Source: Archaeoglobales archaeon (GTDB lineage Archaea; Halobacteriota; Archaeoglobi; Archaeoglobales; Archaeoglobaceae). From it: a stretch of 25,184 nt of DNA. A model generated the notes under the pieces. The model did no database searches. It was not told the origin of the DNA and worked only from the letters and a program-made list of their open reading frames with translations. Numbering within the stretch: position 1 is the first letter of the stretch; each line of letters starts with the position of its first letter. A program made the position numbers and the translations under genes. The DNA lies in assembly GCA_003662985.1 (NCBI GenBank), contig QMZD01000001.1, positions 1 to 25,184 of the forward strand. Reading direction: 5' to 3'. Below are positions 405 to 14,151 of the stretch, one piece after another.

Positions 405-414
405 TCAATCACCT

Positions 415-903
415 CTACTCTCTGTATGTTTCTACGCACTCTCTCGTGTCTGGATTTGTCGGGTCGTAGATTTTCACACCCTCAAAGTACACCACAATGA
501 AGTAATGCTGGAACGGTGCCCACCAGGGTTCGCCGGTTATGTCGTTTGTTGTGGTTGTGAAGGTTCCAATCTCAAATGTTTTTGTCTCGCCCGAACTTAG
601 GCTAATGTATTTTGTAAGTGTTGCATAGTTCTCATCAGGCCAGTTTGCCCATGCTTTTCTTACATAGACGGTTATATATCCATCAACTGAACCTCCTGTA
701 GCTTTTAGAGTTGTATAAAGGGTAACCTCCTCTCCCGCTGGGACTCTGATTCTTGACCCCCTCACGAAGGCGAGCCCAGGATTACTATTCTGCTCGGCCA
801 TGACGAAGCTGGTGTATGCAACCAGAAGAATTGCTGCAATCAGAAGAAGTACTGCAATCTTCTTAGCATTTTTTATTTTTGGCAGCGGTTTTTCTTCAGG
901 CAT
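415..903 (-). CDS. Secreted or membrane-anchored beta-domain protein
   Basis: A protein of 162 residues. A basic N-terminus (residues 1-15, several Lys) is followed by a hydrophobic segment at about 16-36 ending VMA, either an uncleaved anchor or a signal peptide. The rest alternates hydrophobic and polar residues as a beta-sandwich does, including a VPAGEEVTLYTTL strand and a SLSSGETKTFEIG hairpin like those of CARDB or Ig-like archaeal exodomains. No catalytic motif is visible. The ATG has no ribosome binding site, but a TATA-like box lies about 26 bases upstream, so the transcript is probably leaderless. It is the first gene of a minus-strand cluster and diverges from the membrane winged-helix gene at 939, which may regulate it. 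Confidence 0.8.
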   Translation of the reverse strand: MPEEKPLPKIKNAKKIAVLLLIAAILLVAYTSFVMAEQNSNPGLAFVRGSRIRVPAGEEVTLYTTLKATGGSVDGYITVYVRKAWANWPDENYATLTKYISLSSGETKTFEIGTFTTTTNDITGEPWWAPFQHYFIVVYFEGVKIYDPTNPDTRECVETYRE

Positions 904-908
904 AAAAA

Positions 909-916
909 TTTAAATA
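909..916 (+). promoter_or_regulatory. TATA box for the 939 regulator (leaderless)
   Basis: TTTAAATA is centred 26-27 bases upstream of the GTG at 939, the archaeal TATA-to-start distance. No ribosome binding site lies between them, which predicts a leaderless mRNA. The box lies next to the divergent ATG at 903. Confidence 0.55.
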
Positions 917-924
917 CTTCCAAC

Positions 925-933
925 TTTAAAAAA
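925..933 (-). promoter_or_regulatory. TATA box for the 903 secreted-protein gene (leaderless)
   Basis: On the minus strand an A/T-rich box (TTTTTTAAA) sits about 26 bases upstream of the ATG at 903. It interlocks with the plus-strand promoter at 909-916, so one bound protein could affect both genes. Confidence 0.5.
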
Positions 934-938
934 TTTTT

Positions 939-1400
939 GTGGCAAGCTTTGAGGAAGTTAGGCTCAAGGTTATAGAATACCTGAGAGATAACGGTTCTGC
1001 CAACATCTCCGAGCTTGTTAGGGAAATAGGATGCGGTAAGCAGACTGTTTATGATGTCGTTGCTTCACTAGAAGCAGAAGGGAGGGCAAAATCCTCAATA
1101 GTGAGGGGAAAGAGGATTGTAAGGCTGACGGCAATCATGCCGGATTATCTGAAGGTTTTAACAAGCGTGACAATCTTACTCTTACTCTTCACCAGGATCC
1201 CTCTGCTCAAACCATCCCTCGTGGTGCATACCGATGCCGAGGGATGTTTAGTCGTCTACCCATCAATTGCGGTCTTCTTGCTATCTATTGTGTTTGGGTT
1301 CTGGATGGCGGTTGTTGTTTTAAAGCAGGAGGATCTAATTGAAACTTACCACTCAATCAAGGTCAATATCAAGAGGATAATTGGTGTTTTGAGAGAATAA
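939..1400 (+). CDS. Membrane-tethered winged-helix transcription regulator
   Basis: A protein of 153 residues starting with GTG. Residues about 4-66 form a winged helix: helix EVRLKVIEYLRDNG, a recognition pair ISELVREIGCGKQTVYDVV, then a basic wing (RGKRIVRL). Two hydrophobic helices follow at about 71-86 and 107-127, with a short loop between them and a basic cytoplasmic tail. This is the layout of archaeal membrane-bound wHTH regulators, which keep the DNA-binding domain inside the cell. It diverges from the secreted-protein operon at 903 and stands just upstream of the large exoprotein block starting at 1558. Control of one or both by a membrane-sensed signal is plausible but inferred. 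Confidence 0.85.
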   Translation: MASFEEVRLKVIEYLRDNGSANISELVREIGCGKQTVYDVVASLEAEGRAKSSIVRGKRIVRLTAIMPDYLKVLTSVTILLLLFTRIPLLKPSLVVHTDAEGCLVVYPSIAVFLLSIVFGFWMAVVVLKQEDLIETYHSIKVNIKRIIGVLRE

Positions 1401-1413
1401 GACCTCAGACACC

Positions 1414-1429
1414 TCTTTTAGATAAAAGA
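1414..1429. repeat. Perfect 7-bp inverted repeat (operator or weak terminator)
   Basis: TCTTTTA and TAAAAGA are separated by GA, just after the stop of the regulator gene and about 40 bp upstream of the TATA box of the exoprotein block. The position suits an operator for a dimeric winged-helix protein or a 3' end signal. Confidence 0.5.
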
Positions 1430-1462
1430 CCGTTTCTGACGCCCCAAGACACGGGCTGACTT

Positions 1463-1479
1463 GGAAATATTTATATAAA
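1463..1479 (+). promoter_or_regulatory. Strong BRE/TATA promoter of the exoprotein block
   Basis: A purine-rich GGAAA at 1463-1467, suitable as a BRE, precedes TTTATATA at 1470-1477, which lies inside the 12-bp palindrome ATTTATATAAAT. The predicted transcription start is near 1500, giving a leader of about 57 bases before the ATG at 1558. It is the clearest promoter in the window and stands ahead of the long plus-strand gene series. Confidence 0.75.
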
Positions 1480-1502
1480 TACATCACTAATAATCAACCG
1501 AT

Positions 1503-1523
1503 CCCCATGCGGGGAGGCATGGG
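1503..1523 (+). other. Hairpin at the predicted 5' end of the exoprotein mRNA
   Basis: CCCATGC at 1504-1510 pairs perfectly with GCATGGG at 1517-1523 around a GGGGAG loop. An alternative, mutually exclusive hairpin pairs CCCC at 1503-1506 with GGGG at 1511-1514 around ATGC. If transcription starts near 1500, the structure caps the mRNA, followed by an A-rich stretch and the ribosome binding site. It may protect the mRNA or act in control. It does not match a riboswitch class that I know. Confidence 0.6.
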
Positions 1524-1557
1524 TTTTAAAAAAAAGGTAAAATAAGAGGTGGTGAGA

Positions 1558-2166
1558 ATGGGACAGACGGGTAAGATGTTATTGGTCGCACTTGTTGTTG
1601 CGGCCCTGGCTGTGTCTGCGACATGGCTGTATATGAATGGATACATAACGACCAGCTACCAGCAAGGCTACCAGGCCGGATATACGGCCGGACAGGCTGC
1701 CACGACTGCTGCTGTTGCAACACCGGTTAGCCTGACAATAACCCAGGCTGCGACGAGTTTCAACCACTCGAGTAATGTATCTGCTGATGGTTCCGCAAAG
1801 GCTGGAGACCTGAGCCTGCTTGTTACAATAACCAACAACGACAACGAGTCTGCAAATGTTGTAATCACAGCACAGAATCCAAAGACCGGAACCGATGGAA
1901 TCCCATCAGCCCTTGAGAAGGCCTACTTCAACGTCTACGCCGGCAGTATGAGCCTGAGGAAGTACCTGTACGTTGATGGCAGCTACACAGACGGAGCTGC
2001 TATGGTTATTGATGGCAACTCAGTAGTGAGCTTCTACATAGGCACCGAGTTTGAGACCGCCCCGGCCGGAACATTCAGCGACAACCAGACCTACACGCTC
2101 CACATCTACGTGTATCAGCCAAATGCGAACTATGTGCAGGAACTGACGTACACACTACTGACCTAA
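1558..2166 (+). CDS. N-terminally anchored exoprotein, first gene of the exoprotein block
   Basis: A protein of 202 residues. The ATG at 1558 is preferred over the upstream GTG at 1549 because GAGGTGGTGA lies at the right distance before it. A hydrophobic helix at about residues 8-24 is followed by a Tyr/Gln/Gly/Ala motif (YQQGYQAGYTAG), reminiscent of a flexible or coiled stalk. Then comes an Ala/Thr-rich stretch and a domain of about 140 residues that looks all-beta, with two Asn-X-Ser sequons early on. There are no enzyme motifs. As the promoter-proximal gene with a capped leader, it may be the most abundant product, as a major structural protein would be. A similar AGYKAG motif follows the anchor of the protein at 24704-25132. 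Confidence 0.8.
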   Translation: MGQTGKMLLVALVVAALAVSATWLYMNGYITTSYQQGYQAGYTAGQAATTAAVATPVSLTITQAATSFNHSSNVSADGSAKAGDLSLLVTITNNDNESANVVITAQNPKTGTDGIPSALEKAYFNVYAGSMSLRKYLYVDGSYTDGAAMVIDGNSVVSFYIGTEFETAPAGTFSDNQTYTLHIYVYQPNANYVQELTYTLLT

Positions 2167-2194
2167 TTCAAATTTTTTACAGGGGTGTAAAAGC

Positions 2195-3325
2195 ATGAAC
2201 AGAATTGCAAAGAGTACGGTACTTGTCAGTCTAGCTCTTATAGCGATTGCAGCGATGTCAGCGAGTGCAATGGCCGCAACGATTACTCCAAGCTTTGTGG
2301 GTGATGTGAGTTATGCGAATCAGATTAATGGGACTCTAAACTCTTCAAATTCTCCCTACAATGGGATCTTCTACTTCCCATTCACTCTCGAGGCCTTGAA
2401 CGACTCCGGGGGGTCGCTCTACCTCAACATAACCTGTGGATCCAATGGGGCAACCTTTAACCTGACAATAAACGGCAATACAATCGTTACGAATTACAGC
2501 TGCCCTGCAAACACCGTCTCCTACACGAACCTAACGCTTCTGAACAACTCGATTAGCCTTGACACGAACTATATGAACATAACTATAGATGTGAGTGCAA
2601 ACTCGACAACCGCAACATGGCTGAACATAACCGGGACCGATGTACCCCTGAGCGGAGGTAACTTCAGCTTCACAACAAGCGAGACGAACCTTTCGGACAT
2701 CTACATAGGATTCTACCCGCAGGACACCTACTACACCGTCAGAGACACAATTACGGTAACGCAGAACTCCTCGCTCAACCTCACAAACGTTACGGCAACC
2801 TACAGCTACCCATCTAACGCTCTTAACTCGCCGGAGACTTCACACTCGTTCGGCACACTGAACACATCACAGTCCAAGTCTGATACCGTCGATTATCAGA
2901 AGCAGGGACCCTATGTTGGAGCGATCCAGACAAAACTGAAGGGCACGACATACACGACAACAATGGACATCTACGCTCCGGAAGCGGTAAATGCCTACTT
3001 GAGCTTTGACCCAAGTGAGAAGCCCTGGAGCAAATACTTCGCCGAGTTTAACAAATCAAACATAGTCAGCATAGAGCTAAACGATGTTGATGTTGATTGG
3101 ACGGATCCACCATCAACCGTAACAACCGAAACCATGACGCTAACTGCCAACTGGAACGAGCTTGTTGTAACCTACACCAAGCCAACAGCCCCAAGCGGTC
3201 CGGTGATTATAAACGTTGAGGAGACACCCTGGTACATGGACACCTTCCTGATGGTGCCAATTTACATCTGGATAATCGTGGTTGTCGCGGCGGTTCTAGT
3301 GGGCGTATACATGGCGAGGGGGTGA
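2195..3325 (+). CDS. Heavily glycosylatable surface or spike protein with C-terminal anchor
   Basis: A protein of 376 residues. A signal peptide occupies residues 1-27 with an AMA cleavage site, and a membrane helix lies at about 355-373, followed by a short ARG tail. The ectodomain between is rich in Asn, Thr and Ser and appears all-beta. I count about 18 Asn-X-Ser/Thr sequons, mostly in residues 45-230, which would give dense N-glycosylation. This is typical of archaeal S-layer or enveloped-virus spike proteins: signal peptide, beta ectodomain, single C-terminal anchor. AGGGGTG precedes the ATG. Its stop overlaps the ribosome binding site of the next gene, so translation is probably coupled. 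The spike or envelope role is inferred; no family is recognised. Confidence 0.85.
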   Translation: MNRIAKSTVLVSLALIAIAAMSASAMAATITPSFVGDVSYANQINGTLNSSNSPYNGIFYFPFTLEALNDSGGSLYLNITCGSNGATFNLTINGNTIVTNYSCPANTVSYTNLTLLNNSISLDTNYMNITIDVSANSTTATWLNITGTDVPLSGGNFSFTTSETNLSDIYIGFYPQDTYYTVRDTITVTQNSSLNLTNVTATYSYPSNALNSPETSHSFGTLNTSQSKSDTVDYQKQGPYVGAIQTKLKGTTYTTTMDIYAPEAVNAYLSFDPSEKPWSKYFAEFNKSNIVSIELNDVDVDWTDPPSTVTTETMTLTANWNELVVTYTKPTAPSGPVIINVEETPWYMDTFLMVPIYIWIIVVVAAVLVGVYMARG

Positions 3326-3327
3326 AC

Positions 3328-3876
3328 ATGAGGGCACTAATTGCAATAGTTTTGGCCATGCTGATTGCAGGGATCCCACTTGCAGTAGCACAGTCGAGCT
3401 ATCAGCTTGCGAAGGCGAACTTTGACGTTGCAGCCGATGGGCAGAAGAACATCTGGGGAGTTGTCTATGTAAACTACGGAGAGGGCATACAGGTTAATGT
3501 AAAGGTTGAGAACACCGGAACAGTAACGCTCAACGGTTTCAAGGTTGGTATAAACCTACATAAGCCTGATGGAACTTGGTGGCCCGGCCCTTCAAGTACA
3601 AATTATCAGTGGTACACCTTCTCAGACACCCTCTCTCCTGGGCAGTCGGTGACAAAGGGTATTCAGACGGGTGTGACTGCAGATCAGACTGGTTGGTGGA
3701 GTGTTGGGGCAAAGCTCACGATGACAGACGGCACTTACCTGAGTTATGATTCTGGAGACTTTGAGGTGGAAGCTCTCGAGGCAACAATCACAATACAATC
3801 AGTGGTGGGATACACAATAGCCGGACTGATATTCATCGGACTTGCTTGGGCAGTTAGGAGAGCATTCGGTGGCTAA
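3328..3876 (+). CDS. C-anchored CARDB-like exoprotein, paralogue of the 5388 gene
   Basis: A protein of 182 residues. The ATG at 3328 has the site GAGGGGGTGA; the GTG at 3322 is less likely. A signal peptide ends at AVA (about residue 23), then comes one beta-sandwich domain with the CARDB-like core IQVNVKVENTGTVTLNGFKV, then a membrane helix at about 154-175 and a basic RRAFGG tail. CARDB-type domains are common adhesion or spacer modules in archaeal exoproteins. The protein encoded at 5388-5897 has the same architecture and a closely matching core (IQVNVQVQNTGTSIINGFWI), so the two are duplicates lying on either side of the subtilase gene. They may be subunits or substrates of that protease. 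Confidence 0.85.
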   Translation: MRALIAIVLAMLIAGIPLAVAQSSYQLAKANFDVAADGQKNIWGVVYVNYGEGIQVNVKVENTGTVTLNGFKVGINLHKPDGTWWPGPSSTNYQWYTFSDTLSPGQSVTKGIQTGVTADQTGWWSVGAKLTMTDGTYLSYDSGDFEVEALEATITIQSVVGYTIAGLIFIGLAWAVRRAFGG

Positions 3877-3900
3877 GGAGGTGCCACACAGGGTGTTCAG

Positions 3901-5394
3901 ATGCGAATGCGAATACAGACAGTACAAATCATCGGCCTGCTACTGATAGCCACGGGCTTCATTGCTTTTATTTATTTATCACTACCGCAGGGAAACATTG
4001 AAGTAATAGGGTACAATTTGCAGCAGGCTTTTGGATTGCAAACGTTTCCACTGAGCAGTGCAACCCCGGAGCAGAAGATCTCTCCACTTTTACAGCAGGC
4101 CATTTCAAGGGCATTACCCGGGGAGAGAATTCCAGTTGTTATAGTACTCACTGCACCAAAACAGATGGCCGTTGCGCAGCAGCAGGCTTTACTTCCCAGG
4201 CTTCAAGCATATCAGTTTCAACTCGTTTCTCAAACAATTTACGTTGCCAACACAATGGCTGGATACGTTCCGGCCGATAAGGTAGAAGATATGGCCTCAG
4301 AGGAGTACATTGAGAAAATACTCTACGATGGGAAAATCTTCAGGGTTTCGTGGGACTGGCCGTGGTCAGGAAATAAGGTGAGGGTTTCAAACCTTCAGCA
4401 ATCAATACAGCAAATTGGAGCGGACAAGGCCTGGCAGCTTGGCTACACAGGCCAGGGTGTTAAGGTCATCATCATAGACAGTGGAATTGCAAACAACCAC
4501 CCTGCCTTGCAGCGGAACGGAAAGAGCCTCGTCATATACGAGGAATCATTTGTCCCAGGGGCCAGCGACTACACCCACTGGCATGGAACTCACGTTGCCG
4601 GGATAATAGCCTCCCAGGATGCAACCTACAAGGGAGTAGCTCCAGGGATTGAGGGGTTCATAGATTTGATAGCATTCGACTCCGATGGATCTGCATCACC
4701 ATCTTGGTTGCTAAAGGCATTAGATGAGGCCTACAGGATCGTTACCAGCCAGCCTGGGACCTACGTCTCCTCTAACTCTTGGGGGACTGACTTCGTTGAT
4801 GCACCGGAGGCTGAGGAAATGAGGATGGCAGCGATGAATTTAGCAGACAAGATACCCGTGGTGTTTGCGGCCGGAAACACGGGGCCAGGAACCTCTACAA
4901 TCTGGGCTCCTGGAGATGCCGACAGGAATGGAAATGAGGTTATAACCGTTGCCGCAGTCGATACCTCTGGAAACATTGCAACCTTCTCATCCAGAGGGCC
5001 AGACACGGCTGGAGAGGAGCACAACGAACCTGATGTTGCAGCACCGGGGGTTAACATAATGTCCACGGTACCAACAGGATTCGAGGCAGCAAGCGGAACA
5101 TCGATGGCAACACCCCACGTTGCTGGAGTTATTGCATTAATGCTTTCGAAGAATCCATCTCTGAGCAACAGGGATTGCCTTAGGGTACTGGAGCAGACGG
5201 CAAGTGGGGGAGGATTCAACTACGCCACCGGATATGGAATAGTGCAGGCTGACGAGGCCGTTCAGGCAGCCAGTCAGACTTTCATAACGCCCACGGTTCC
5301 TGAGTGGGTGTATCAGGCAATCAGCATCGCGATAATTTTAGTAGGAATTGTGTTGGTTTTAAAACCCAAATTGGAGGTGATGGGAATATGGTGA
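3901..5394 (+). CDS. Membrane-anchored subtilisin-family (S8) serine protease
   Basis: A protein of 497 residues. It has an N-terminal hydrophobic segment (about 9-27), an inhibitor-like propeptide (about 60-150, including RIPVVIVLTAP and YVPADKVEDMASEEYIEKI) and a catalytic domain at about 168-460. The triad is complete: Asp193 in VIIIDSGI, His228 in HGTHVAG and Ser401 in GTSMATPHVAG, with the oxyanion Asn326 in VFAAGNTGPG. A C-terminal membrane helix lies at about 470-488. The protease should therefore be active and held outside the membrane. It probably matures by cleaving its own propeptide and acts on neighbouring surface proteins. AGGGTGTT precedes the ATG. Its last 7 bases overlap the next gene, so the two are translationally coupled. 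Confidence 0.96.
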   Translation: MRMRIQTVQIIGLLLIATGFIAFIYLSLPQGNIEVIGYNLQQAFGLQTFPLSSATPEQKISPLLQQAISRALPGERIPVVIVLTAPKQMAVAQQQALLPRLQAYQFQLVSQTIYVANTMAGYVPADKVEDMASEEYIEKILYDGKIFRVSWDWPWSGNKVRVSNLQQSIQQIGADKAWQLGYTGQGVKVIIIDSGIANNHPALQRNGKSLVIYEESFVPGASDYTHWHGTHVAGIIASQDATYKGVAPGIEGFIDLIAFDSDGSASPSWLLKALDEAYRIVTSQPGTYVSSNSWGTDFVDAPEAEEMRMAAMNLADKIPVVFAAGNTGPGTSTIWAPGDADRNGNEVITVAAVDTSGNIATFSSRGPDTAGEEHNEPDVAAPGVNIMSTVPTGFEAASGTSMATPHVAGVIALMLSKNPSLSNRDCLRVLEQTASGGGFNYATGYGIVQADEAVQAASQTFITPTVPEWVYQAISIAIILVGIVLVLKPKLEVMGIW

Positions 5395-5897
5395 GTAAAA
5401 AAATAATCGGACTTGTGGTGTTGCTAGTGATTGCAATTGCAACAGCAACAGCCTCAGCAACCTCAACGGCATCGATGTCGGCTAGCGTTGGGGCGAAGAC
5501 CTTCACCGGGGCCTATGCTGTCAACAAGGGCGACTTCATCCAGGTTAACGTTCAGGTGCAGAACACCGGCACGAGTATAATAAACGGCTTCTGGATTAGC
5601 GTTAAGTTTCTGAAGCCAACTGGAGAGTTCACGGACGAGGAGTACTTCGACTACACGAATGTTACCCTTCAAGCAGGACAGACCTATTCTGCAAGCATAA
5701 AAACCTCAACCCAGGCAGATGCTGCGGGGAACTGGGTTGCATTGGTGTATTTGAGATCAAACGATGCCTCAAGGAGTGTTATTGCGAGCGATGATGCAAC
5801 CTTCGTAGTCAGCGAGCCGTATACGGACTGGATAGTCTATGGAATCCTGGCGGTTGGAGCGGTTGCTTTAGGGTACATCATCGTGAGAAGGAAGTGA
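5388..5897 (+). CDS. C-anchored CARDB-like exoprotein, paralogue of the 3328 gene
   Basis: A protein of 169 residues. The ATG at 5388 is chosen because GGAGGTGA precedes it by seven bases and because the signal peptide (MVSKKIIGLVVLL onwards, about residues 1-24) starts there; an in-frame ATG at 5304 would put hydrophilic sequence ahead of it. One beta domain with the core IQVNVQVQNTGT is followed by a membrane helix at about 147-165 and a VRRK tail. The gene overlaps the protease stop by 7 bases. Its likeness to 3328-3876 in length, topology and core motif shows duplication. A structural or scaffolding role at the cell or virion surface is inferred. Confidence 0.88.
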   Translation: MVSKKIIGLVVLLVIAIATATASATSTASMSASVGAKTFTGAYAVNKGDFIQVNVQVQNTGTSIINGFWISVKFLKPTGEFTDEEYFDYTNVTLQAGQTYSASIKTSTQADAAGNWVALVYLRSNDASRSVIASDDATFVVSEPYTDWIVYGILAVGAVALGYIIVRRK

Positions 5898-5927
5898 TAA
5901 GCATATAAGCAAAAGGGGAATGAGGCG

Positions 5928-5966
5928 ATGGGAGCAGTAAAGCGTAAAAGGAGAGTGGTAAGATGA
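5928..5966 (+). CDS. Possible 12-residue basic micro-ORF
   Basis: An ORF reading MGAVKRKRRVVR runs from an ATG at 5928 and ends at a TGA that overlaps the ATG of the next gene (ATGA). Its only upstream purine stretch is GAATGAGGCG. It might couple translation into the next gene, or it might be chance. I see no independent support for it. Confidence 0.2.
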   Translation: MGAVKRKRRVVR

Positions 5967-6442
5967 CAGAACAGAGGCGCTCGATGATGTTTTTAGGGAT
6001 AGTCGGAGTCCTCATCTTCTTCATACTTTTTACCCAGATGGGATGGTGGACTCCAGCACCACCACCGGCATCATCACCGCCTGGGGATTATCCGGAGATT
6101 ACTTACCTCACGGAGGTTAGGCTCGAGGAGCCCTGGTGGACCGCCCAGCCACACATTGAGTGGATAAAATCATCGCAATCATCCACACCATACACAGCTG
6201 CAAAGGCCGACCTCGTTGCCTTTCCCTGGGGTGGCAAGCTGAAGCTCACAATTACCTATCCTGGTGGGCAGGTGATTCAACTCCAGCAGAATGTGAAGGT
6301 GGAGTGGAACTCCGGGAAGACTGTTCCCTTCTACTGGAAAACAAAGCAGGTTGGAACCCATCTCATTACGGCAGAGCTATACAACGGTGACGGGATGCTG
6401 ATAGACAGCAAGACTGTAAGCGTTGATGCACCCTATAGGTGA
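5963..6442 (+). CDS. N-anchored exoprotein with Pro-rich neck
   Basis: A protein of 159 residues. A hydrophobic helix at about 8-24 follows a basic N-terminus (TEQRRS). Next comes a Trp/Pro-rich neck (residues 26-43, WWTPAPPPASSPP) and a beta-rich domain of about 110 residues with strands such as KLKLTITYPGGQVIQL and HLITAELYNGDG, resembling an Ig-like or CARDB-like fold. It probably faces outward. GAGAGTGGTAAG precedes the ATG. The stop overlaps the start region of the following membrane protein gene. There is no catalytic motif. Its role is unknown, with context placing it in the surface assembly. Confidence 0.82.
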   Translation: MTEQRRSMMFLGIVGVLIFFILFTQMGWWTPAPPPASSPPGDYPEITYLTEVRLEEPWWTAQPHIEWIKSSQSSTPYTAAKADLVAFPWGGKLKLTITYPGGQVIQLQQNVKVEWNSGKTVPFYWKTKQVGTHLITAELYNGDGMLIDSKTVSVDAPYR

Positions 6443-6453
6443 TGGTGGTAAGG

Positions 6454-6843
6454 ATGTCGTGGAAGGATGATATCCTGGACGTGGCGCTTGCAACCGCACT
6501 GTTTGCTCTATCGATTTTACTCTCGTATGCGGTAATCAGGGCACTGGACTGGTTACTCATGGTCATCAGCTTTGCAGCACTCTACATATGGCTCGTGAGG
6601 CTCGTGCTTGGCTACTTCAACATCAAGGGGTTTGCAATAGCAGCCTTGATGGATTTTGGCTGGGTTGCTGTGGTTGTGGCTCTTGGGCTTCCGGCTATAG
6701 TTGCTGCAGTTGTTGTACTAACCCTTGGAGAGCTGATAAAGCTGGTAACAATCTTCCTGCTTGCTTGGTTAATCTTCAGGCTCCTCGTTAGTATCCTTAT
6801 ACCAAGTCTATCAGAGGAGCTTGATAAAATATGGGAGGATTGA
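6454..6843 (+). CDS. Small multi-span membrane protein
   Basis: A protein of 129 residues, almost entirely hydrophobic, with four or five helices at about 10-28, 32-50, 62-88 and 93-115, and an acidic C-terminus (EELDKIWED). The ATG at 6454, with GGTGATGGTGGT upstream, is preferred over start codons at 6439 and 6442 that overlap the previous stop. No transporter signature is visible. Small proteins of this kind are major membrane components of several archaeal enveloped viruses, and they also occur as assembly factors in hosts. The sequence does not settle which applies here. Confidence 0.8.
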   Translation: MSWKDDILDVALATALFALSILLSYAVIRALDWLLMVISFAALYIWLVRLVLGYFNIKGFAIAALMDFGWVAVVVALGLPAIVAAVVVLTLGELIKLVTIFLLAWLIFRLLVSILIPSLSEELDKIWED

Positions 6844-6881
6844 ATTTTTAATTAGAAAAATTGGAGAATTGGAGGTGAATT

Positions 6882-7370
6882 ATGGATTGGGAGTGGTTTA
6901 AGTTTGGAGGCGTGAGAGGATTAATTGGCTTCATCGTGCTAGCGTTCCAGGCAGCGTTCCTGTCGAGCATTGCCATCCCATCCCTGCAAATCGGCACACA
7001 GGACATAGTGAACTCCTTCGACATCCAGCAACTCTGGCTGTTTGCGATAGTGCTGATGGTGATAGTGTCGTGGGCAGCATCTGGAATCGTTTACTGCATT
7101 GGCGGATATCTTGTTAAAGCTGCCAATGTTAGAACCACGGGATTCTGGAGGGTTGCCTTGGCTGGAGTTATAGGAGCCGCCATAGTCGGCTTGATTCTCG
7201 TGGTTTTGCTCTACCTGCTCAATGCAACGGTTTGCATAGACTCGACATGCAGCCAGACCTACATCATCACGGCCCTCGTCGGTTTACCCTCGGCTCTGAT
7301 TGCTGAGGTTGGGTTCGCAGCCCTTACGTGGTGGTTCTACAAGGGGATGGAATGGCAGGTTCCCCAGTGA
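6882..7370 (+). CDS. Four-helix membrane protein
   Basis: A protein of 162 residues with hydrophobic helices at about 11-34, 50-75, 86-113 and 124-152. The loop before the last helix carries two Cys (VCIDSTCSQ) that could form a disulfide outside. The start has a very good GGAGGTGAATT site. The stop TGA overlaps the ATG of the signal peptidase gene (TGATG), so the two are translationally coupled. It has the same size class and topology as the preceding protein, but I see no obvious sequence identity between them. I do not recognise a family. Confidence 0.82.
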   Translation: MDWEWFKFGGVRGLIGFIVLAFQAAFLSSIAIPSLQIGTQDIVNSFDIQQLWLFAIVLMVIVSWAASGIVYCIGGYLVKAANVRTTGFWRVALAGVIGAAIVGLILVVLLYLLNATVCIDSTCSQTYIITALVGLPSALIAEVGFAALTWWFYKGMEWQVPQ

Positions 7371-7801
7371 TGTACAAGCAGTCTAACCTACACAAAGTTT
7401 TATTTTTAGGAATAGCCGTGGTTATCGGATTTTTCCTCCTCTCGTGGTTAACGCTAGGGGAGTGCTTCATCCTAACAATCACGCTTCAGGATCATTATTT
7501 ACTCGGTGTGGGTGAAGGAACATCGATGTATCCCTTAATAAAGCCCGGAGATTATTTACTAATCGATACTTCTCCCGAGGATTTGAAGGTGGGAGATATT
7601 ATTGTTTATTATTATCAGGGGAAGTTCGTGGGCCACAGGATAATCGGCATCACCGATGAGGGATATATAACCAAAGGGGATAATAATCCTCAACCAGATC
7701 CAGTAGTTAAAAAATCCATGATAATTGGTGAAATTGATAAAATTGTGGGAAATGATTTATCGAAGAAGATTGCAGAACTGTATTATGTGAGGGTGAAATA
7801 A
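7370..7801 (+). CDS. Type I signal peptidase, archaeal Ser-His-Asp type (S26)
   Basis: A protein of 143 residues. It has one N-terminal membrane helix (about 9-27), then the S26 boxes: Ser52 in GTSMYPLIKPGDYLLI, His89 in VGHRII replacing the bacterial Lys, and Asp104 in TKGDNN. All catalytic residues of the ER/archaeal type are present. It would remove signal peptides from exported proteins at the outer face of the membrane. The ATG at 7370, overlapping the previous stop, is preferred; an in-frame start at 7352 is possible. Cells normally have their own housekeeping enzyme, so a copy embedded among exported-protein genes suggests that it is dedicated to them. Confidence 0.95.
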   Translation: MYKQSNLHKVLFLGIAVVIGFFLLSWLTLGECFILTITLQDHYLLGVGEGTSMYPLIKPGDYLLIDTSPEDLKVGDIIVYYYQGKFVGHRIIGITDEGYITKGDNNPQPDPVVKKSMIIGEIDKIVGNDLSKKIAELYYVRVK

Positions 7802-7813
7802 TGGGGTGAAATA

Positions 7814-9910
7814 ATGATTGGCTCAAGAGTGTGGTTTAAAGAGATGAAAAAACTTCTATTTGGGTTTGTTTTGATTATAACCCTGATGGGAACAGTCGTG
7901 GCTACGGATTATTACGTCTCACCAACGGGAGACGATTCAAACACCGGAACGTCTGTAGAATCTGCTTGGAGAACTTTAAGCTATGCATGCTCTCAGCTAA
8001 CCGCAGGGGATACGCTGTGGGTAGTCAATGGGACTTATCAAGATGATTACTGCAGCCTATCGGCGAGTGGAACGAGCACATCTTGGATAACAATCAGAGC
8101 CTATAATGGAACCCCAGTAATAAACGGCACATTCAACGAAACAGCCGGAACTTGTTCCCCATCTTATGCCGTGAGGTTCAACTACAACGACTATATAAGA
8201 ATAATCGGATTGAGGATTAGGTATGTTGATGACGGGTTGGTGAGGTTTGGTAGCCATGTGAAAGTTGAAGATGTTGATGTTGGACAAATCTGCGGTTATG
8301 CAATTTTCATCGACTCTCACCTGTATGCCATCAATACGGGAAACGCATTAAACCACATCTGGATCAACAACAGTTCGATTCACGATACAGCGATTAACGG
8401 CGATACTGGACCAAACCTAATCCATATAGCGGGGGCACAGGCCGATGAGGGAGAACCTGCGGGACATCACATCTTTTTATACAACAACAACATTTATGGA
8501 TCCGGGCTACACCAGATTTTGAATTTTCAAAACTACAACCCTCCAGATTATACAAACGTCGGGCTTCACAGCGTGTTTGTGATAAACAACACCATCCACG
8601 ACCTAGGTTTCAACCCGTCTGGAATGTGGACGATATATGGGGCTTTGGTGAACTCAACTTTCGAAAACAACACGTTTCAGAACATTAACAAATACGGCAT
8701 AGCCGGCCAGATGATTAACGTAACCTTCAGAAATAATATACTCAACAACACGGATGGGTTATATCTCTGGGGCAAGCTTGATAACTGTATCTTTGAGAAT
8801 AATATAATAAGAAACGTGAATAATTACTTTGCGTTTGGCGTGTACGATGGAATTAACACAACCTTCAGAAACAACACAGTAGAGGGCGTTCACTACGGGA
8901 GGTTCAGGGGCAGTAGCACAAATCACACTATAGAAAACCAGACCCAGCCAGTGAGCTTTATACTCGGTAGTGGAGCCACAATTATGGTTAGCTACCCATC
9001 CGGAAGGTATTTCGAGCTCAGTTACACATCTGGAGATACAAGCTATACGATGAGTAAACACCACACCGCAGATGGATGTGTGGCAAAGCTTCAAAACACC
9101 GGAACAACGGAGTCCTACTTTACCCTAACCCCATATAACTTCAGTGCCATACCTCAGTATCAACCTGGAACGATAACCCTCAACTCGTATGATTTACCAT
9201 CGAGTTTAAACTTCACGGCAAACTTCACCACAGCCTCGGGAAATGTAAACTTTAGCGTTTGGAGCTTGAGACCCAACCACCTTTATACAATCAAAAGAAG
9301 CGATGGGAAATATTGGGACGGCTCTGGTTGGGTAGACACAATAACAGCCATCTCTTCAGGTGCTGATGGTGAGATAAGCTTCAGCAACTCTGAGTGGAGT
9401 ACGGAGACTTTTGTAGTCACGGACCAGGGACCGGTTGGTGAGCCCCTTATAACAAGCGTGTGGAATAGCGTTACCCAGGACTCCTCGAGTGAGATTACAA
9501 TCGAAGAAGGAACGACAGTAGAGTACAGGGTTGTTGCTGACCAGACGATAAACACATGGACCTGGAGCGGAGTCGACTCTCATACCGGTGATGGGAGCGA
9601 TACCAGTGAGGCGACTAAATACTACGGCACGCCCGGAACGTTCTATGTTACCGTCTATGGCAGCAATGCAAACGGCAACACACAAACTGTAACCTGGACA
9701 ATTGATGTCAATCGCAAACAGACAGAATGGCCAAGTGAGCCAACTCCTCCGCCTAGCACTGGACCATCACCATCACAGCCTTTGCCAACCCCAACACCAC
9801 CTATAGTCGTGCCCCCTCCGCCTGAACAAGGTATGACGAATGAGCAGCTGTTCGCCATAGTTGTTATAATAGTTTCCGCAATAGCGTTAGTAATAATTAT
9901 AAAATCGTGA
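7814..9910 (+). CDS. Large parallel beta-helix exoprotein with PKD-like domain and C-terminal anchor
   Basis: A protein of 698 residues. The ATG at 7814 follows GGGGTGA. A signal peptide lies at about 11-31. The mature protein opens with YYVSPTGDDSNTGTSVES, the DUF1565-type start of right-handed parallel beta-helix proteins, and runs to about residue 400 with repeated FRNN/FENN Asn-ladder turns. Next come a module at about 400-545 shared with the protein at 11330-12001 (RSDGKYWDG and WSTETFVV motifs), a PKD-like beta domain at about 548-640, a Pro-rich linker and a membrane helix at about 679-696. Such helices bind or cut polysaccharide or form viral fibres. No catalytic residues can be assigned by eye. 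It has many N-glycosylation sequons. Confidence 0.9.
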   Translation: MIGSRVWFKEMKKLLFGFVLIITLMGTVVATDYYVSPTGDDSNTGTSVESAWRTLSYACSQLTAGDTLWVVNGTYQDDYCSLSASGTSTSWITIRAYNGTPVINGTFNETAGTCSPSYAVRFNYNDYIRIIGLRIRYVDDGLVRFGSHVKVEDVDVGQICGYAIFIDSHLYAINTGNALNHIWINNSSIHDTAINGDTGPNLIHIAGAQADEGEPAGHHIFLYNNNIYGSGLHQILNFQNYNPPDYTNVGLHSVFVINNTIHDLGFNPSGMWTIYGALVNSTFENNTFQNINKYGIAGQMINVTFRNNILNNTDGLYLWGKLDNCIFENNIIRNVNNYFAFGVYDGINTTFRNNTVEGVHYGRFRGSSTNHTIENQTQPVSFILGSGATIMVSYPSGRYFELSYTSGDTSYTMSKHHTADGCVAKLQNTGTTESYFTLTPYNFSAIPQYQPGTITLNSYDLPSSLNFTANFTTASGNVNFSVWSLRPNHLYTIKRSDGKYWDGSGWVDTITAISSGADGEISFSNSEWSTETFVVTDQGPVGEPLITSVWNSVTQDSSSEITIEEGTTVEYRVVADQTINTWTWSGVDSHTGDGSDTSEATKYYGTPGTFYVTVYGSNANGNTQTVTWTIDVNRKQTEWPSEPTPPPSTGPSPSQPLPTPTPPIVVPPPPEQGMTNEQLFAIVVIIVSAIALVIIIKS

Positions 9911-9937
9911 AATAAAGTATAGTGAGGTGGATAAAAG

Positions 9938-11317
9938 ATGGTAAGCACACAAGGTGGTAAGATGAAAATAGGAAAAATAGGGTGGGTTTTGGTAGGATTG
10001 ATGGTTTTAGTGGGGATAGTGATTGCTGCCAGCTCGGTTGTGCACATCGATGATACAATTACCTATGATGACTCTCCAGTTCTCGATTTGGCCAACAAGG
10101 AAATTACGGTGAACAAGCTTACATCGCCGCAGGTGACGTGGAACTTCTCAGCGGGGGATGCTCCCACTTCTGCTGCTACGGTGATAGTCAGCAAGGAGGG
10201 GAGCTATACGGTGGCGAGGTGGTATAATGGTACTGTTCTTTACAAAAGCAATGATGGGTACGATGACGATGATATTCAAGTTGCAATAAATGCTGTTGGT
10301 GCATTGGGTGGTGGGAAAGTAAAATTAGGACAAGGGATCTTCGAAGTAGATAATAGTATTCTGATAAATAAGAGTGCAATTACTTTGGAAGGAGAAGGAA
10401 CAGATGCAACAACATTAAAATTATCAAATTCGGCAAATTGTGATATTATAAGAGTAGGAAATCCAAGTGAAAATGTATTTTTTGCAAGAGTGGAAAAGTT
10501 AACGATTGATGGAAACAGGGTAAATCAATCTGCGACAAACCTAGCTGGTATACGTTTCATAAAATCATGCAGCGATTATGTTTTGAAGGAGTTATATATA
10601 AAGTCGGTCTCTGGAAGTGGTGTAGTTTTGGAGTATGGGTGGTATGGGAGATTTACTAGGCTATGGCTCGAGGGAAATCTTGATGCGGGATTAAAAACGA
10701 ATGGGACATCTTCATCTGCTGTAACTGAGCTAACTGTGACTGATTCTACAATGAGTATAAATGATTACGGGTTATACCTAGAAGGTAAGTTGAATGGAGG
10801 TAATTTTGTTAATTTAATAATAAAAAATAATGAAAAGGATGGAGTCTTTATAACGCAAAATTACCCAAACACGGACACACCGAGATCTCTTTATTTCTTA
10901 AATTGTCGGATTTTGGATAATTCCCATTCAAGTCCAAATACATACAATGCGATAACATTGGATACATTTGAGACAGGCTATTTAAGGCTCGTATTTACCT
11001 CTTGTGAGATATATAATTCTGGAGATAGCAGTTATGCACAAAAATATTTATTCGAGGCTAAACAGTGGTCGGCTACAAAGGGGATTGTCTTTGTGAATAA
11101 TCATCTTGCCCTGAATGGTGTTGGGACAGATTACTTTAATGAAAGAGGCTCAACACTTAGCATTTATCGAAACATTGGTTACCACTACACATCCCAGTTT
11201 GACTTCCCAACCTCAGCACCAAGCTCACCACAAACCGGAGATGCCTACTTCGATGTGGCAACAAACACCCTTTATGTTTACAACGGCACGGCATGGGTTT
11301 CCACGACGCTGAGCTAA
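9938..11317 (+). CDS. N-anchored pectate-lyase-like beta-helix protein with phage-fibre-like tip
   Basis: A protein of 459 residues. There are two plausible starts, 9938 (GAGGTGG upstream) and 9962 (AAGGTGGT upstream). A membrane helix lies at about 15-32. Residues about 110-400 form a parallel beta-helix beginning with the pectate-lyase-3-like entry DDIQVAINAVGALGGGKVKL. The C-terminus, about residues 430-459, carries GDAYFDVATNTLYVYNGTAW, a pattern familiar from tail-fibre and receptor-binding proteins of many phages. The middle of the gene (about 10230-11150) is clearly more A+T-rich than both ends, which suggests a swapped-in receptor or substrate-binding module. A role as an adhesin or receptor-binding fibre is inferred. 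Confidence 0.88.
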   Translation: MVSTQGGKMKIGKIGWVLVGLMVLVGIVIAASSVVHIDDTITYDDSPVLDLANKEITVNKLTSPQVTWNFSAGDAPTSAATVIVSKEGSYTVARWYNGTVLYKSNDGYDDDDIQVAINAVGALGGGKVKLGQGIFEVDNSILINKSAITLEGEGTDATTLKLSNSANCDIIRVGNPSENVFFARVEKLTIDGNRVNQSATNLAGIRFIKSCSDYVLKELYIKSVSGSGVVLEYGWYGRFTRLWLEGNLDAGLKTNGTSSSAVTELTVTDSTMSINDYGLYLEGKLNGGNFVNLIIKNNEKDGVFITQNYPNTDTPRSLYFLNCRILDNSHSSPNTYNAITLDTFETGYLRLVFTSCEIYNSGDSSYAQKYLFEAKQWSATKGIVFVNNHLALNGVGTDYFNERGSTLSIYRNIGYHYTSQFDFPTSAPSSPQTGDAYFDVATNTLYVYNGTAWVSTTLS

Positions 11318-11329
11318 CGGAGGTGACCA

Positions 11330-12001
11330 ATGAAGGCAAGGAGGACAAGGATAACACTGATGGCAACAACCTTACTCCTTTATATTTTAGCCTTAGCCAC
11401 CGCATCCGCTGACGTAACAGTCAACGAGAACACCAGCATTTCGCCATTAGCTGTTAACACCACCTTTTACTTTGCAACAACCTTCACATTCAGCTACATC
11501 GACATCTACGACGACCACGTCGACTTCGGCGGGTTCGATTTCTATGCTATTCCTTCTCCGGCAACTAACCCTGTTAATATAACTTTATCGAAGCTAACTC
11601 AGACGGATTCTAGGTTTACCGCTAATAGCTTAGGAGAAGTAACCTTCACAATTGGAGGTTTACAACCAGATTTTACATACCTCATCCAGAGGAGCGATGG
11701 TTTATACTACGATAGCAAGCACAACTCCTGGACTACTGAGAAAACCACAGCCCTTACAAACCACTCCGGCTACATAAGCTTTACAAACAGTCAGTGGAGT
11801 GAGAAGGGGTTTACGATTACTTTATACAACCCAGGTGGTGAGGTTCCAACTCCCACTCCACAGCCAACGCTAACACCAACTCCAGCACCAACAATACCTC
11901 CAATCCCACCGCCTGAACATGAGCCAGACTATAAGCTATACTTCACAATAGCTGTGGCAATTGTCACCCTAGCTGCGACAGCATACCTGTTGAGAAAGTA
12001 G
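11330..12001 (+). CDS. C-anchored surface protein carrying a module copied from the 7814 gene
   Basis: A protein of 223 residues: a signal peptide (1-28), one domain (about 29-170), a Pro-Thr linker (about 171-194), a membrane helix (about 203-220) and an RK tail. The domain contains YLIQRSDGLYYD and ISFTNSQWSEKGFTI, which match YTIKRSDGKYWDG and ISFSNSEWSTETFVV in the protein encoded at 7814-9910. The linker and anchor are also of the same kind, so this is a stand-alone copy of that protein's C-terminal part. GGAGGTGACC precedes the ATG. It appears to close the plus-strand exoprotein block. Confidence 0.87.
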   Translation: MKARRTRITLMATTLLLYILALATASADVTVNENTSISPLAVNTTFYFATTFTFSYIDIYDDHVDFGGFDFYAIPSPATNPVNITLSKLTQTDSRFTANSLGEVTFTIGGLQPDFTYLIQRSDGLYYDSKHNSWTTEKTTALTNHSGYISFTNSQWSEKGFTITLYNPGGEVPTPTPQPTLTPTPAPTIPPIPPPEHEPDYKLYFTIAVAIVTLAATAYLLRK

Positions 12002-12042
12002 CTTAACCATAATTAAGCGAAATCTCCATTGATTGCTCTTTC

Positions 12043-12051
12043 TTATATTAA
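12043..12051 (+). promoter_or_regulatory. Probable TATA box of the DUF5667-like gene
   Basis: TTATATTAA would place the transcription start near 12073-12077, giving a leader that includes the GAGGTTTA site before the ATG at 12099. A second T-rich box at about 12069-12077 is less suitable because the ribosome binding site would then not be transcribed. Confidence 0.4.
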
Positions 12052-12098
12052 ACCTTTGCGATAGAAAACGTTTTATTTTTGTTATGTGAGGTTTAACC

Positions 12099-12893
12099 AT
12101 GAGAGGTTTGATGGTCTTGGTAGTTTTGGCTGTAGTATCGATGATGTCAATAGCTGTGGCACAGACACAGGCGGATCCTGGTTTAATCACCCCAAACAGC
12201 CCGCTTTACCAGCTCGACATATGGTTCGACAACCTGAAGCTGATGTTTTCTCCCAACAAGGCTTTAACTGCCGTTGGGATAATGAACGAGAGGATTGCAG
12301 AGTATCAGCTTACGCAATCCAATGCAGCGATAGATGACTACCTCGATAAGATGAACACGGCCAAAATTCACGCATCTGATACTACAACAAAACAAATAGT
12401 TGAGGAGGTAATCTCCCAGCATGTAAATACCCTAAAGCAGGTCAGGCAGAAAGTTCCAGATGAGGCAAAGAAGGCAATAGACAGGGCCATAAATGAGTCG
12501 CAGAGGGTTATTGATGTTATAAAGAAGGTACTACAACCGGAAGAGCAGGATGTTATTCAGATTGACATTCCAACAAGTGTAAAGGTTGGGGAGAACGTAA
12601 CCGCTTCCTGGACCATATGCAACCCGTTCAACTCAACTCTCGAATATGTTGTTGTGAAGATGCACATCAGGAAGGCAGACTTCAGTGGGATTATTGTAAA
12701 GAGGGACATTGAGGAAACCTACAGCCTAAACTTGGCCCCAGGAGCTTGCAAGTCTGACAGCATGTCGATAACAGTTCCAGAAACAATATGGGGAGTTCCG
12801 ACAAGGGGGACCTGGATTGCTGTGGTTGAGGTTGTTGCAGAGCCGCAGGATGTTGTAATCTACCACACGATGGAGACGTTGCAGGTTTCTTAA
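12099..12893 (+). CDS. Secreted DUF5667-like helical protein with C-terminal beta domain
   Basis: A protein of 264 residues with a signal peptide (1-21, ending AVA) and no later membrane helix. Residues about 25-155 are helical and contain PGLITPNSPLYQLDIW, then the F-SPNKA and IMNERIAEYQ pattern of DUF5667, a domain of unknown function found in secreted archaeal and bacterial proteins. Residues about 160-264 form a beta domain with a CARDB-like SVKVGENVTASWTICNP strand pair and two Cys that may bridge (TICNP and GACKS). It has its own promoter and lies about 100 bases beyond the exoprotein block. It could equally be a host-type gene. Confidence 0.8.
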   Translation: MRGLMVLVVLAVVSMMSIAVAQTQADPGLITPNSPLYQLDIWFDNLKLMFSPNKALTAVGIMNERIAEYQLTQSNAAIDDYLDKMNTAKIHASDTTTKQIVEEVISQHVNTLKQVRQKVPDEAKKAIDRAINESQRVIDVIKKVLQPEEQDVIQIDIPTSVKVGENVTASWTICNPFNSTLEYVVVKMHIRKADFSGIIVKRDIEETYSLNLAPGACKSDSMSITVPETIWGVPTRGTWIAVVEVVAEPQDVVIYHTMETLQVS

Positions 12894-12907
12894 TTCAAAG
12901 ATTTCAA

Positions 12908-12920
12908 ATTCTTTTAGAAT
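12908..12920. terminator. Short hairpin between convergent genes
   Basis: ATTCT and AGAAT flank a TTT loop inside the 64-bp T-rich gap between the plus-strand gene ending at 12893 and the minus-strand gene ending at 12958. Archaeal terminators need mainly T-tracts, so this is only a weak call. Confidence 0.3.
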
Positions 12921-12957
12921 CTTCTACCACTTTTGCAACTACATAAAAATAGAAGAT

Positions 12958-14121
12958 TTACTTGTTTATAACTGTGAACTCCTTTTTATTTCCCACTCTG
13001 AGGTGCGGTGCTATTGTTTCTATAACACTGAAGATTGGTAGTAAAATAATATACTTCAGCCTTGAGAAGCCTTTAAGCCTCATCGCTCCATATATATACG
13101 CTATGTAATAGTACACTGCTCCAATTAGTCCAAAAAGCTTTATCTCAAGTGGTATAGGTAGGAAAAACCACAATGGTGCAAATGCCCAGCTTCCAATGAT
13201 ACCAACTTTCCAATCTAAGATTCGGATTCCCGCTATGAGTTTCACACCCAGAGTTCCACTCCAAACATCCTTTATCAAGCCCCTATACCACCTGTTTCTC
13301 TGCTTTAGTAAGTCCTTAACGCTGTGCGGGCTGAGTATTGATACTCTTGTGGCCGACTGCCATGTTCTGTATCCTCTCTTGAGCAACTCTCTTGCAAAGG
13401 CGAAATCTTCAGTTATTGACTCTCTATTAAAGCCGACCTCTCTTAAAACCTTCCCCTTCGCTAGTAAAAGCTCCCCGTGGAATCCATTATACGGCCTCCC
13501 AAGTAACCCGCTACAGGTTCTAAATATGGTTAAATCATCGAAATATCTCAGGCTGTCAGCGACGAAGGTTGTCTTACTATCACCAACTCTCGGAAATAGA
13601 ATTGCATTGGCTGCTAGGTGACCGTTTGGTTCAAAGTGTGGGATCTCATAAAGGAATCTGTCGTCTAGAATTAGATTATCATCGTCTATGAAAGCATACC
13701 ACTTATCTTCCTCAACGTGGTTTTGTATAAACCACTCTATTGCTCTTCCTTTTGCTATCGCCTGGCACTTGAAACTTTCTGGAACAACGAGGAGTCTGAC
13801 GTTTTTGAACATCTTTATCGAGGTGAGCTTCTCAAGTTCACTAATAAGATCTGATCCTTCATCCACTATCACGTTTATCCTATACTCTTTGAACTTTGTA
13901 GCATTGTGCCTTATTCCTTGCATCAGAGCTGATTTGACATTGTTGCAGGCCTTTGAGACAATACAAATCTCTACGTTTTTTGCCTTTTTCTCACTCTTTG
14001 GGGCCCTATACAATATCCATCCAAGCGAGCCAAATATAACGTAGAAACTCACAATGCTCCAGTGGATGGCTATCAGCCAAGACAGTACCCATACTATCTG
14101 CTCTATACCAACTATTACCAC
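12958..14121 (-). CDS. Membrane family-2 glycosyltransferase with QxxRW motif
   Basis: A protein of 387 residues starting with GTG at 14121, with AGGGGTGATT upstream. An N-terminal helix (about 11-37) is followed by a cytoplasmic GT-A domain with the metal-binding FIDDDN (Asp146-148), the acceptor-side ITED (238-239) and QRNRW at 274-278, which fits Q(Q/R)xRW of processive glycosyltransferases such as cellulose and hyaluronan synthases. Two or three C-terminal membrane helices follow (about 305-350 and 357-372). It probably adds or polymerises sugars on a lipid or glycan at the membrane. It lies about 30 bases after the ATPase gene and is probably in the same operon. A link to glycosylating the sequon-rich surface proteins is suggestive only. 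Confidence 0.9.
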   Translation of the reverse strand: MVIVGIEQIVWVLSWLIAIHWSIVSFYVIFGSLGWILYRAPKSEKKAKNVEICIVSKACNNVKSALMQGIRHNATKFKEYRINVIVDEGSDLISELEKLTSIKMFKNVRLLVVPESFKCQAIAKGRAIEWFIQNHVEEDKWYAFIDDDNLILDDRFLYEIPHFEPNGHLAANAILFPRVGDSKTTFVADSLRYFDDLTIFRTCSGLLGRPYNGFHGELLLAKGKVLREVGFNRESITEDFAFARELLKRGYRTWQSATRVSILSPHSVKDLLKQRNRWYRGLIKDVWSGTLGVKLIAGIRILDWKVGIIGSWAFAPLWFFLPIPLEIKLFGLIGAVYYYIAYIYGAMRLKGFSRLKYIILLPIFSVIETIAPHLRVGNKKEFTVINK

Positions 14122-14151
14122 ACAATCACCCCTTTAAAATCTTTAAAATAA

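Follow-up and report, generated by a model that had tools for sequence, protein, structure and literature searches.

Relation to described systems

The haloarchaeal plasmid vesicles of the pR1SE type are, in composition, the closest known system to the locus described here. These elements (apHPVs) carry a subtilase within a surface-protein cluster, together with a HerA/VirB4-type ATPase; pR1SE vesicles contain a subtilase, which has been proposed to mature vesicle proteins, and the group is described as confined to Halobacteria (PMC10818511). For the Archaeoglobi, the sections of the 2025 ICTV summary used here name one virus family, the Thalassapleoviridae (PMC12451623), and the excerpt used of a further report describes a sphaerolipovirus-like provirus, ArcVen-P3 of A. 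veneficus (PMC4158269).

The stretch of DNA analysed (the window; 25,184 nucleotides) shares with the apHPVs an S8 subtilase inside a cluster of exported or structural proteins (at 3901-5394 in the window), a PKD/lectin-type candidate for host recognition, integration into host replicons and an ATPase that may be of the HerA/VirB4/packaging type (PMC10818511). The statement of a first-pass annotation that no described system has this exact set of genes therefore needs a qualifier. Differences are found in the proteases: the apHPV core table, unlike the window, shows no signal peptidase, and the subtilase of pHALXA03, a plasmid that we take to be an apHPV, has a Tat-like start by eye and no anchor by the same hydropathy scan that places anchors in the window enzyme. 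The pHALXA03 subtilase matches that of the window at E 0.001 and that of a related element (G004:C34, see below) at 2e-8, and the plasmid encodes a homologue of the window ATPase (27% over 422 aa), which may be of the ORF25 type but lies outside the peptidase cluster. The other pHALXA03 products gave short matches only (E 3e-4 to 0.007, 15-107 residues), and the profiles A2, A4 and A5 reached at best E 0.015. No homologues of the apHPV core structural ORFs (ORF6, 8, 9, 17, 21, 23 and 24) were found in the window by comparison with 21 pHALXA03 products, whose correspondence to these ORFs is not established.

The Thalassapleoviridae (AvPV1 and relatives) share with the window the probable host group, a C-terminally anchored, glycosylated spike with many sequons (VP4) and, as a model, an enveloped particle (PMC10919331). 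One window protein with four spans has the size of VP3, and in related elements a small gene and the family of the integrase are shared with GacPV1/ThalV2. It is nevertheless very unlikely that the element is a thalassapleovirus, or another pleolipovirus-type virus, too diverged to be recognized, because hmmsearch with VP3, VP4, ORF6-like and NTPase profiles gave nothing significant in the window. The best window ORF against a profile of five VP4 proteins, a comparison at the sequence/profile level, had E 1, and that against VP3 had E 1.5 and lay outside the block; the HerA-like ATPase matched the morphogenetic NTPase at E 0.27. The hhalign probabilities were 1.2 for the spike against VP4 and 2.3 for the ATPase against the NTPase, the latter covering the Walker A region alone. 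The element is also larger, at least 35.9 kb as against 13.4-18.0 kb for the thalassapleovirus records. Spindle viruses, in the excerpt used of PMC9894754, are like the window by description: they are large elements from hydrothermal archaea whose structural arm is separate from the enzymatic one and whose coat proteins are highly hydrophobic. Neither four-span protein of the window has a PHROG match at E 0.01.

Gene series and promoter

Twelve plus-strand genes lie between 1549 and 12001, spaced by at most 65 bp or overlapping slightly, and a thirteenth (12099-12893) follows 97 bp past 12001; the tight plus-strand packing noted at first pass was thus correct, but the count of eleven genes was not. 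An archaeal TATA/BRE-like promoter occupies 1463-1485 (plus strand), where the exact sequence TTTATATA at 1470, its sole plus-strand occurrence in the window, stands 79 bp ahead of the series. In the region 15-120 bp upstream of each, the other 12 genes lack a TATA sequence even at one mismatch, although sites at up to one mismatch are common (25 observed versus 17 in shuffles). These observations agree with the earlier proposal of one strong promoter, and the whole block is probably a single transcript.

Every one of the 13 products has at least one membrane or signal segment in a simple hydropathy scan, on which all the anchors given below are based, compared with 78 of 233 ORFs (33%) on 16 further contigs from this genome, which contain at most five anchor-bearing ORFs in a row. 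The packed series of exported and membrane proteins reported from the first reading is thereby confirmed. Taking both strands from 48 to 14121, 17 consecutive genes have such a segment, a run that depends on our own choice of genes, against 4 of 19 in the remaining window. The flanking genes in this run encode a proline-rich anchored protein (48-404, minus strand), an N-anchored protein (415-903, minus strand), a winged-helix membrane protein (939-1400, plus strand) and a membrane GT2 glycosyltransferase (12958-14121, minus strand, convergent with the block; PF13632, 5.4e-18).

Spike, small anchored proteins and proteases

All genes of the block are on the plus strand. The first product (1549-2166; 205 aa) has an N-terminal anchor (residues 10-28) and a beta-rich ectodomain, for which the single-sequence AF2 model (pLDDT 44) was too poor for use. 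Among the remaining products the first-pass annotation had recognized a sequon-dense spike, two multi-span proteins, a signal peptidase and a membrane-anchored subtilase, all of which were upheld. The spike (2195-3325; 376 aa), with a signal segment and a C-terminal anchor, has 18 sequons, or 4.8 per 100 residues, which is above the 99th percentile (4.06) and below the maximum (5.76) of 218 host ORFs. The multi-span proteins (6439-6843, 134 aa; 6882-7370, 162 aa) each have four predicted spans; a protein search with the second returned only itself, on two contigs, the longest of 59,920 bp. Two further products with a signal segment, a beta domain and a C-terminal anchor (3322-3876, 184 aa; 5388-5897, 169 aa) are paralogues (33% identity, E 1.6e-13), the first of which has a weak match in one of 118 other genomes. 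The series also includes an N-anchored protein (5963-6442; 159 aa) and, as its thirteenth gene, an exported DUF5667 protein (12099-12893; 264 aa; PF18915, 37.4 bits, cut-off 27).

The archaeal signal peptidase I (7328-7801, with a possible ATG start at 7370) scores 74.6 bits with TIGR02228, over the equivalog cut-off of 51.85. The subtilase (3901-5394; PF00082, 166 bits, 1.4e-48) has membrane segments close to both termini, and its residues D193, H228 and S401 align with the same residues in the G004:C34 copy.

These proteins might instead serve an element that remodels the host cell surface, for adhesion, biofilm formation, glycan degradation or the exclusion of rival viruses, and that makes no particle. 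This reading, to which we give a minor but appreciable likelihood, is favoured by the adjoining GT2 gene, by the lack of a recognized capsid gene in the window and by the occurrence of beta-helix, proline-rich-stalk and DUF5667-type anchored proteins among the surface proteins of the host and its relatives. Surface decoration, however, needs less than a signal peptidase and a doubly anchored subtilase in one gene run, and does not call for conservation of a spike family, for a pair of four-span proteins or for the tailspike-like mosaicism described next.

Fibre proteins and mosaic exchange

Three consecutive genes encode larger or related surface proteins. The first product (7814-9910; 698 aa) consists of a putative pectate-lyase-like helix, a PKD domain above cut-off, a proline-rich stalk and a C-terminal anchor (residues 678-696); the second (9938-11317; 459 aa) is an N-anchored, tailspike-like beta-helix protein with PF13229 above cut-off; and the third (11330-12001; 223 aa) is C-anchored and akin to part of the first (38% to a region of it), and 66% identical to the product of L072:4791-5447. 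Of the two beta-helix proteins originally proposed, that at 9938 is therefore well founded, whereas the helix at 7814 is indicated by a weak NF041903 match (4.2e-5), far under the cut-off, and by reading of the sequence.

The protein at 9938-11317 has a mosaic homologue (L072:5460-6962, contig C3) that belongs to another element present in this genome. The two have in common their N-terminal part (approximately residues 9-163, with 79% across the best 77 aa) as well as their C-terminal tip (85% over 47 aa), with no detectable similarity in the middle. PHROG families of viral virion-structural and pre-neck appendage proteins (4775 and 20787) match at the start of the beta-helix (121-200) and at the C-tip (427-457), and the conserved ends and swapped middle are those of viral tailspikes, with the difference that the N-terminus here is a membrane anchor. 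The N-terminal segment recurs on two small contigs from other genera, one of which has a neighbour from a tail-fibre family. The fibre-tip motif of the first-pass annotation gains from these matches and from the relative in a co-resident element, and the pattern lends support, at the sequence level, to a role at a particle surface or in receptor binding.

The mobile element and its ATPase

At its end the window is joined to contig C27 by an exact overlap of 123 bases, giving an element of at least 35.9 kb, and an ORF on C27 resembles sliding clamps (1e-12) but had no Pfam match at E 0.01. Intact matches to the spike family were absent from 391 other genomes of the phylum and present in public metagenome-type assemblies. 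From this join to a clamp-bearing contig and this distribution we conclude that the contig is a mobile element; the self-contained block with its own proteases, proposed earlier, thus stands as an export and surface module belonging to such an element. There is only the slightest likelihood that the block is an ordinary chromosomal surface operon of the host: the contig is binned with the genome and its tetranucleotide distance falls inside the range of host contigs, but the block is not seen in relatives, its neighbours are the clamp-like ORF, an orphan-type methylase and small zinc-type and winged-helix genes, and another element of this bin shares its fibre.

A 30 kb element in a related species of the same genus (G004:C34) has a parallel series of part types, comprising anchored proteins of 781 and 569 aa with proline-rich stalks, a doubly anchored subtilase, a DUF87 ATPase and a DUF5667-like protein, and encodes a recombinase with relatives in GacPV1/ThalV2. 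This recurrence of the same part types also speaks for a particle surface. No relative was confirmed among viral contigs scanned with three window proteins, a set from which near records may be left out; in phage records the fibre protein had no match and the ATPase matched one phage (24%).

The HerA-like (DUF87) ATPase (14152-15891, minus strand; PF01935), which has a coiled coil, has eight homologues spanning 99-100% of its length (38-46%). As a canonical HerA helicase it was rejected, scoring 40.2 bits against the NCBIfam equivalog cut-off of 800 with residues 136-277 alone matched. Its match to PHROG 2666, 'terminase large subunit' (8.3e-14), favours the earlier use of this gene as support for a virion, but the same type of ATPase is found on haloarchaeal plasmids. 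It can occur independently of the block, because homologues are present on G209:C83 (22.4 kb seen), which has no block homologue, and outside the peptidase cluster of pHALXA03. The ATPase, with its weak CedD match, and the multi-span proteins could also be read as machinery for DNA transfer through cell contact, accompanied by surface adhesins, in an integrative-conjugative element. We consider this improbable: no relaxase, VirB4 or TraG is among the Pfam matches listed, with 30 of the 36 window ORFs scanned (25 of 31 matches for the ATPase) in an incomplete element of which C27 was covered by one ORF, and 33 of the 35 plasmids with a HerA match are typed non-mobilizable.

Proposed role and implications

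The block probably serves a mobile genetic element, whose host is most likely a member of the Archaeoglobales, as its particle-surface (envelope) module. The presumed single transcript would yield beta-rich proteins that carry signal peptides and membrane anchors: a C-anchored, glycosylated spike, small proteins with a C- or N-terminal anchor, beta-helix proteins, also anchored in the membrane, that may bind receptors or act on glycans, and two four-span proteins of a possible matrix type. The element's own signal peptidase could release the precursors and the doubly anchored subtilase could trim them on the outside, after which the studded membrane might bud as an enveloped virion or a plasmid vesicle; the HerA-like ATPase plausibly moves the DNA. 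The putative particle, predicted here from its genes, would be one or the other of these. The first-pass proposal of a virion envelope or fibre layer is supported as far as a surface and export module with fibres is concerned; a virion envelope lacks the same support, since neither profile searches nor hhalign recognized in the window a capsid protein or fusogen from any known family of viruses.

More tentatively, and at somewhat less than even likelihood, the element may represent a previously undescribed lineage of Archaeoglobales elements, either enveloped and virus-like or of the plasmid-vesicle type, unrelated in sequence to pleolipovirus-type viruses and haloarchaeal vesicles, with its own signal peptidase I and doubly anchored subtilase, and with membrane-planted, tailspike-like receptor-binding proteins swapped as cassettes with co-resident elements. 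If so, plasmid vesicles, or a second, independent lineage of enveloped viruses, would exist outside the haloarchaea, the element-encoded signal peptidase and anchored subtilase would show particle maturation without reliance on the host, and the mosaic fibre would make host recognition between elements that reside together directly accessible to study.

Gene organization

The first-pass annotation had described eleven packed plus-strand genes behind one strong promoter; the packing and the promoter stood, but we counted one gene more, with twelve plus-strand genes lying between 1549 and 12001, spaced by overlaps or gaps of at most 65 bp, and a 13th, preceded by 97 bp, ending at 12893. Upstream of the block, TGGAAATATTTATATAAATA (1463-1485) contains the window's sole exact plus-strand TTTATATA, and no one-mismatch TATA was found 15-120 bp upstream of the other block genes. 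A hydrophobic segment is present in all 13 block products, compared with 78 of 233 ORFs on 16 other contigs of the bin, a background in which two contigs yielding just a few giant surface-type ORFs were retained. The longest background run of segment-bearing genes was five; with our choice of genes, that in the window is 17 (48-14121). The observation of a self-contained surface block was both confirmed and enlarged.

The window is the complete contig C1 (25,184 bp), first-numbered among the 383 contigs of a 2.15 Mb bin, 80.7% complete. At its left, 48-404 encodes a proline-threonine repeat stalk protein with similar DNA in eight other bin contigs, and this gene is likely to be an assembly break point. 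Giant host reading frames with a repeat or beta-helix look occur on contigs C2 (L096) and C18 (L111) of the bin; they reach 3961 codons stop to stop, the longest running off its contig's start, and some end, by eye, in a C-terminal anchor.

Processing enzymes

The two proteases proposed for the block, a signal peptidase and a membrane-anchored subtilase, were borne out. The product of 7328-7801 is an archaeal signal peptidase I (74.6 bits against the NCBI cut-off of 51.85), in which, by reading of the sequence, the conserved Ser, His and Asp boxes are GTSMYP, GHRI and KGDNN, respectively; used as a query, it found no second match across the incomplete bin. The S8 subtilase of 3901-5394 (PF00082, 1.4e-48) has hydrophobic segments at residues 10-28 and 469-487, and its D193, H228 and S401 align with the same residues in the copy on G004:C34, a contig from the same genus.

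Fibre and related elements

The fibre protein (9938-11317) has an N-terminal anchor followed by a beta-helix (PF13229, above cut-off); residues 121-200 match a PHROG 'pre-neck appendage protein' (2e-5), and the fibre-tip motif noted earlier gained support from a hit of the C-terminal tip to PHROG 20787 (1.6e-5), annotated 'virion structural protein'. A 500-residue homologue is encoded on C3, a 23.8 kb contig of the same bin representing a second element, whose sequence shows by eye a tyrosine recombinase and an SF3-type helicase-like ORF, as well as a P-loop ATPase with weak matches to AAA families. Residues 9-163 of the window fibre match this homologue at 55% (79% over the best 77 residues), and the C-terminal 47 residues of the homologue match at 85%. 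Local searches left the middle part unmatched; the comparison also included a forced global alignment. A swapped middle between conserved ends is a usual mark of receptor-binding proteins; in the window fibre, it is a membrane anchor that forms the attachment end. The following gene (11330-12001) has a 66%-identical copy after the C3 homologue, and the fibre N segment recurs in two small contigs of other genera (44% and 32%), beside a tail-fibre-family protein (2.7e-6) in one. C3 also carries two large C-anchored paralogues (3840-4760 and 7209-8345; 33%), whose C-tails resemble by eye the tail of window 3322-3876, and a multi-span CPBP-like ORF (by eye).

We take the window to be part of a mobile element. 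Its right end shares an exact 123-base overlap with contig C27 (10.9 kb), where a protein set among small ORFs matches sliding clamps (1rwz, 1e-12) and no Pfam family at E 0.01. The window encodes an adenine methylase and winged-helix regulators, and its 6882-7370 protein is present as well on a 59,920-bp contig. Outside its own genome, the product of 3322-3876 was matched in one of 118 other genomes (64 residues, E 4.5e-5); the DUF5667 protein (12099-12893) gave weak matches in 11 of the 118, and we therefore regard that domain as common.

G004:C34 (30.5 kb) shares with the right half of the window short stretches of 49-131 bp at 72-88% DNA identity. A single run on it includes two anchored proteins, C-anchored proteins of 781 residues (resembling a glycoside hydrolase, by eye only) and 569 residues with proline-rich stalks, a doubly anchored subtilase (28% overall to the window's), small membrane proteins, a DUF87 ATPase scoring 24.1 bits (cut-off 23.2) and a DUF5667-like protein slightly below cut-off (25.9 against 27). 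The run precedes a tyrosine recombinase, 32-34% to those of the viruses GacPV1 and ThalV2; a second recombinase was seen by eye. The parts of G004:C34 are alike in kind to those of the window, at low sequence identity. Between its ATPase and DUF5667-like genes, 7956-8336 (L075) encodes a very basic 126-residue protein, possibly DNA-condensing.

The HerA-like ATPase

The ATPase (14152-15891, minus strand) forms a family with eight homologues. Relatives lie in archaeal bins (L021, L022) and on contig G209:C83, which also bears a serine recombinase (by eye); more distant ones were found in 35 plasmid records; of the 30 records listed, 21 are haloarchaeal. Judged by the NCBI cut-offs, the window ATPase does not qualify as canonical HerA. 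It matches PHROG 2666 (8.3e-14), a family with the label terminase large subunit. Because it is found away from the block too, a DNA-loading role is a guess; HerA-like helicases are listed as possible viral DNA pumps in a survey of archaeal dark matter (PMC4158269). A GT2-type glycosyltransferase directly adjoins a HerA-like ATPase both in the window (12958-15891) and on G020:C48 (L002 1354-3698; by eye), and on the Bathyarchaeota contig (L022) FHA-like and Ser/Thr kinase-like ORFs adjoin the HerA homologue (by eye). Near the homologue on G209:C83, 9743-10051 (L039) encodes a small protein with some 70% identity to one in ThalV2 and GacPV1, a sign that these elements share genes with pleomorphic viruses.

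Comparison with known particle systems

The Thalassapleoviridae, presented as the first viruses of Archaeoglobi, are enveloped and have VP4 fusogens (PMC10919331); profile searches detected none of their profiled structural proteins in the window. The haloarchaeal plasmid-vesicle elements (apHPVs) are described as having core surface proteins and as encoding both a subtilisin-like protease, detected in the vesicles and proposed to mature vesicle proteins, and a VirB4/HerA/packaging-type ATPase, reported as not found there; the family is apparently limited to Halobacteria, and Halopiger xanaduensis is named in the same paper (PMC10818511). The H. xanaduensis plasmid pHALXA03, presumably the one meant, encodes a homologue of the window ATPase and an S8 peptidase amid a run of hypothetical proteins, the others of which gave no convincing match to window proteins; its subtilase has no anchor in the same hydropathy scan, whereas the window's is anchored. 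The block would thus function much as the surface module of a plasmid vesicle or enveloped virus does, but it can be assigned to neither family. The claim that no described system has this exact set has to be qualified, because apHPVs likewise combine a subtilase, lying among surface-protein genes, with a HerA/VirB4-type ATPase.

The proposal of a virion envelope or fibre layer is supported in kind, as an element-encoded particle surface with its own processing enzymes, with the virion as a candidate; we lean towards the view that the block would specify a particle envelope, either of a virion or of a plasmid vesicle.
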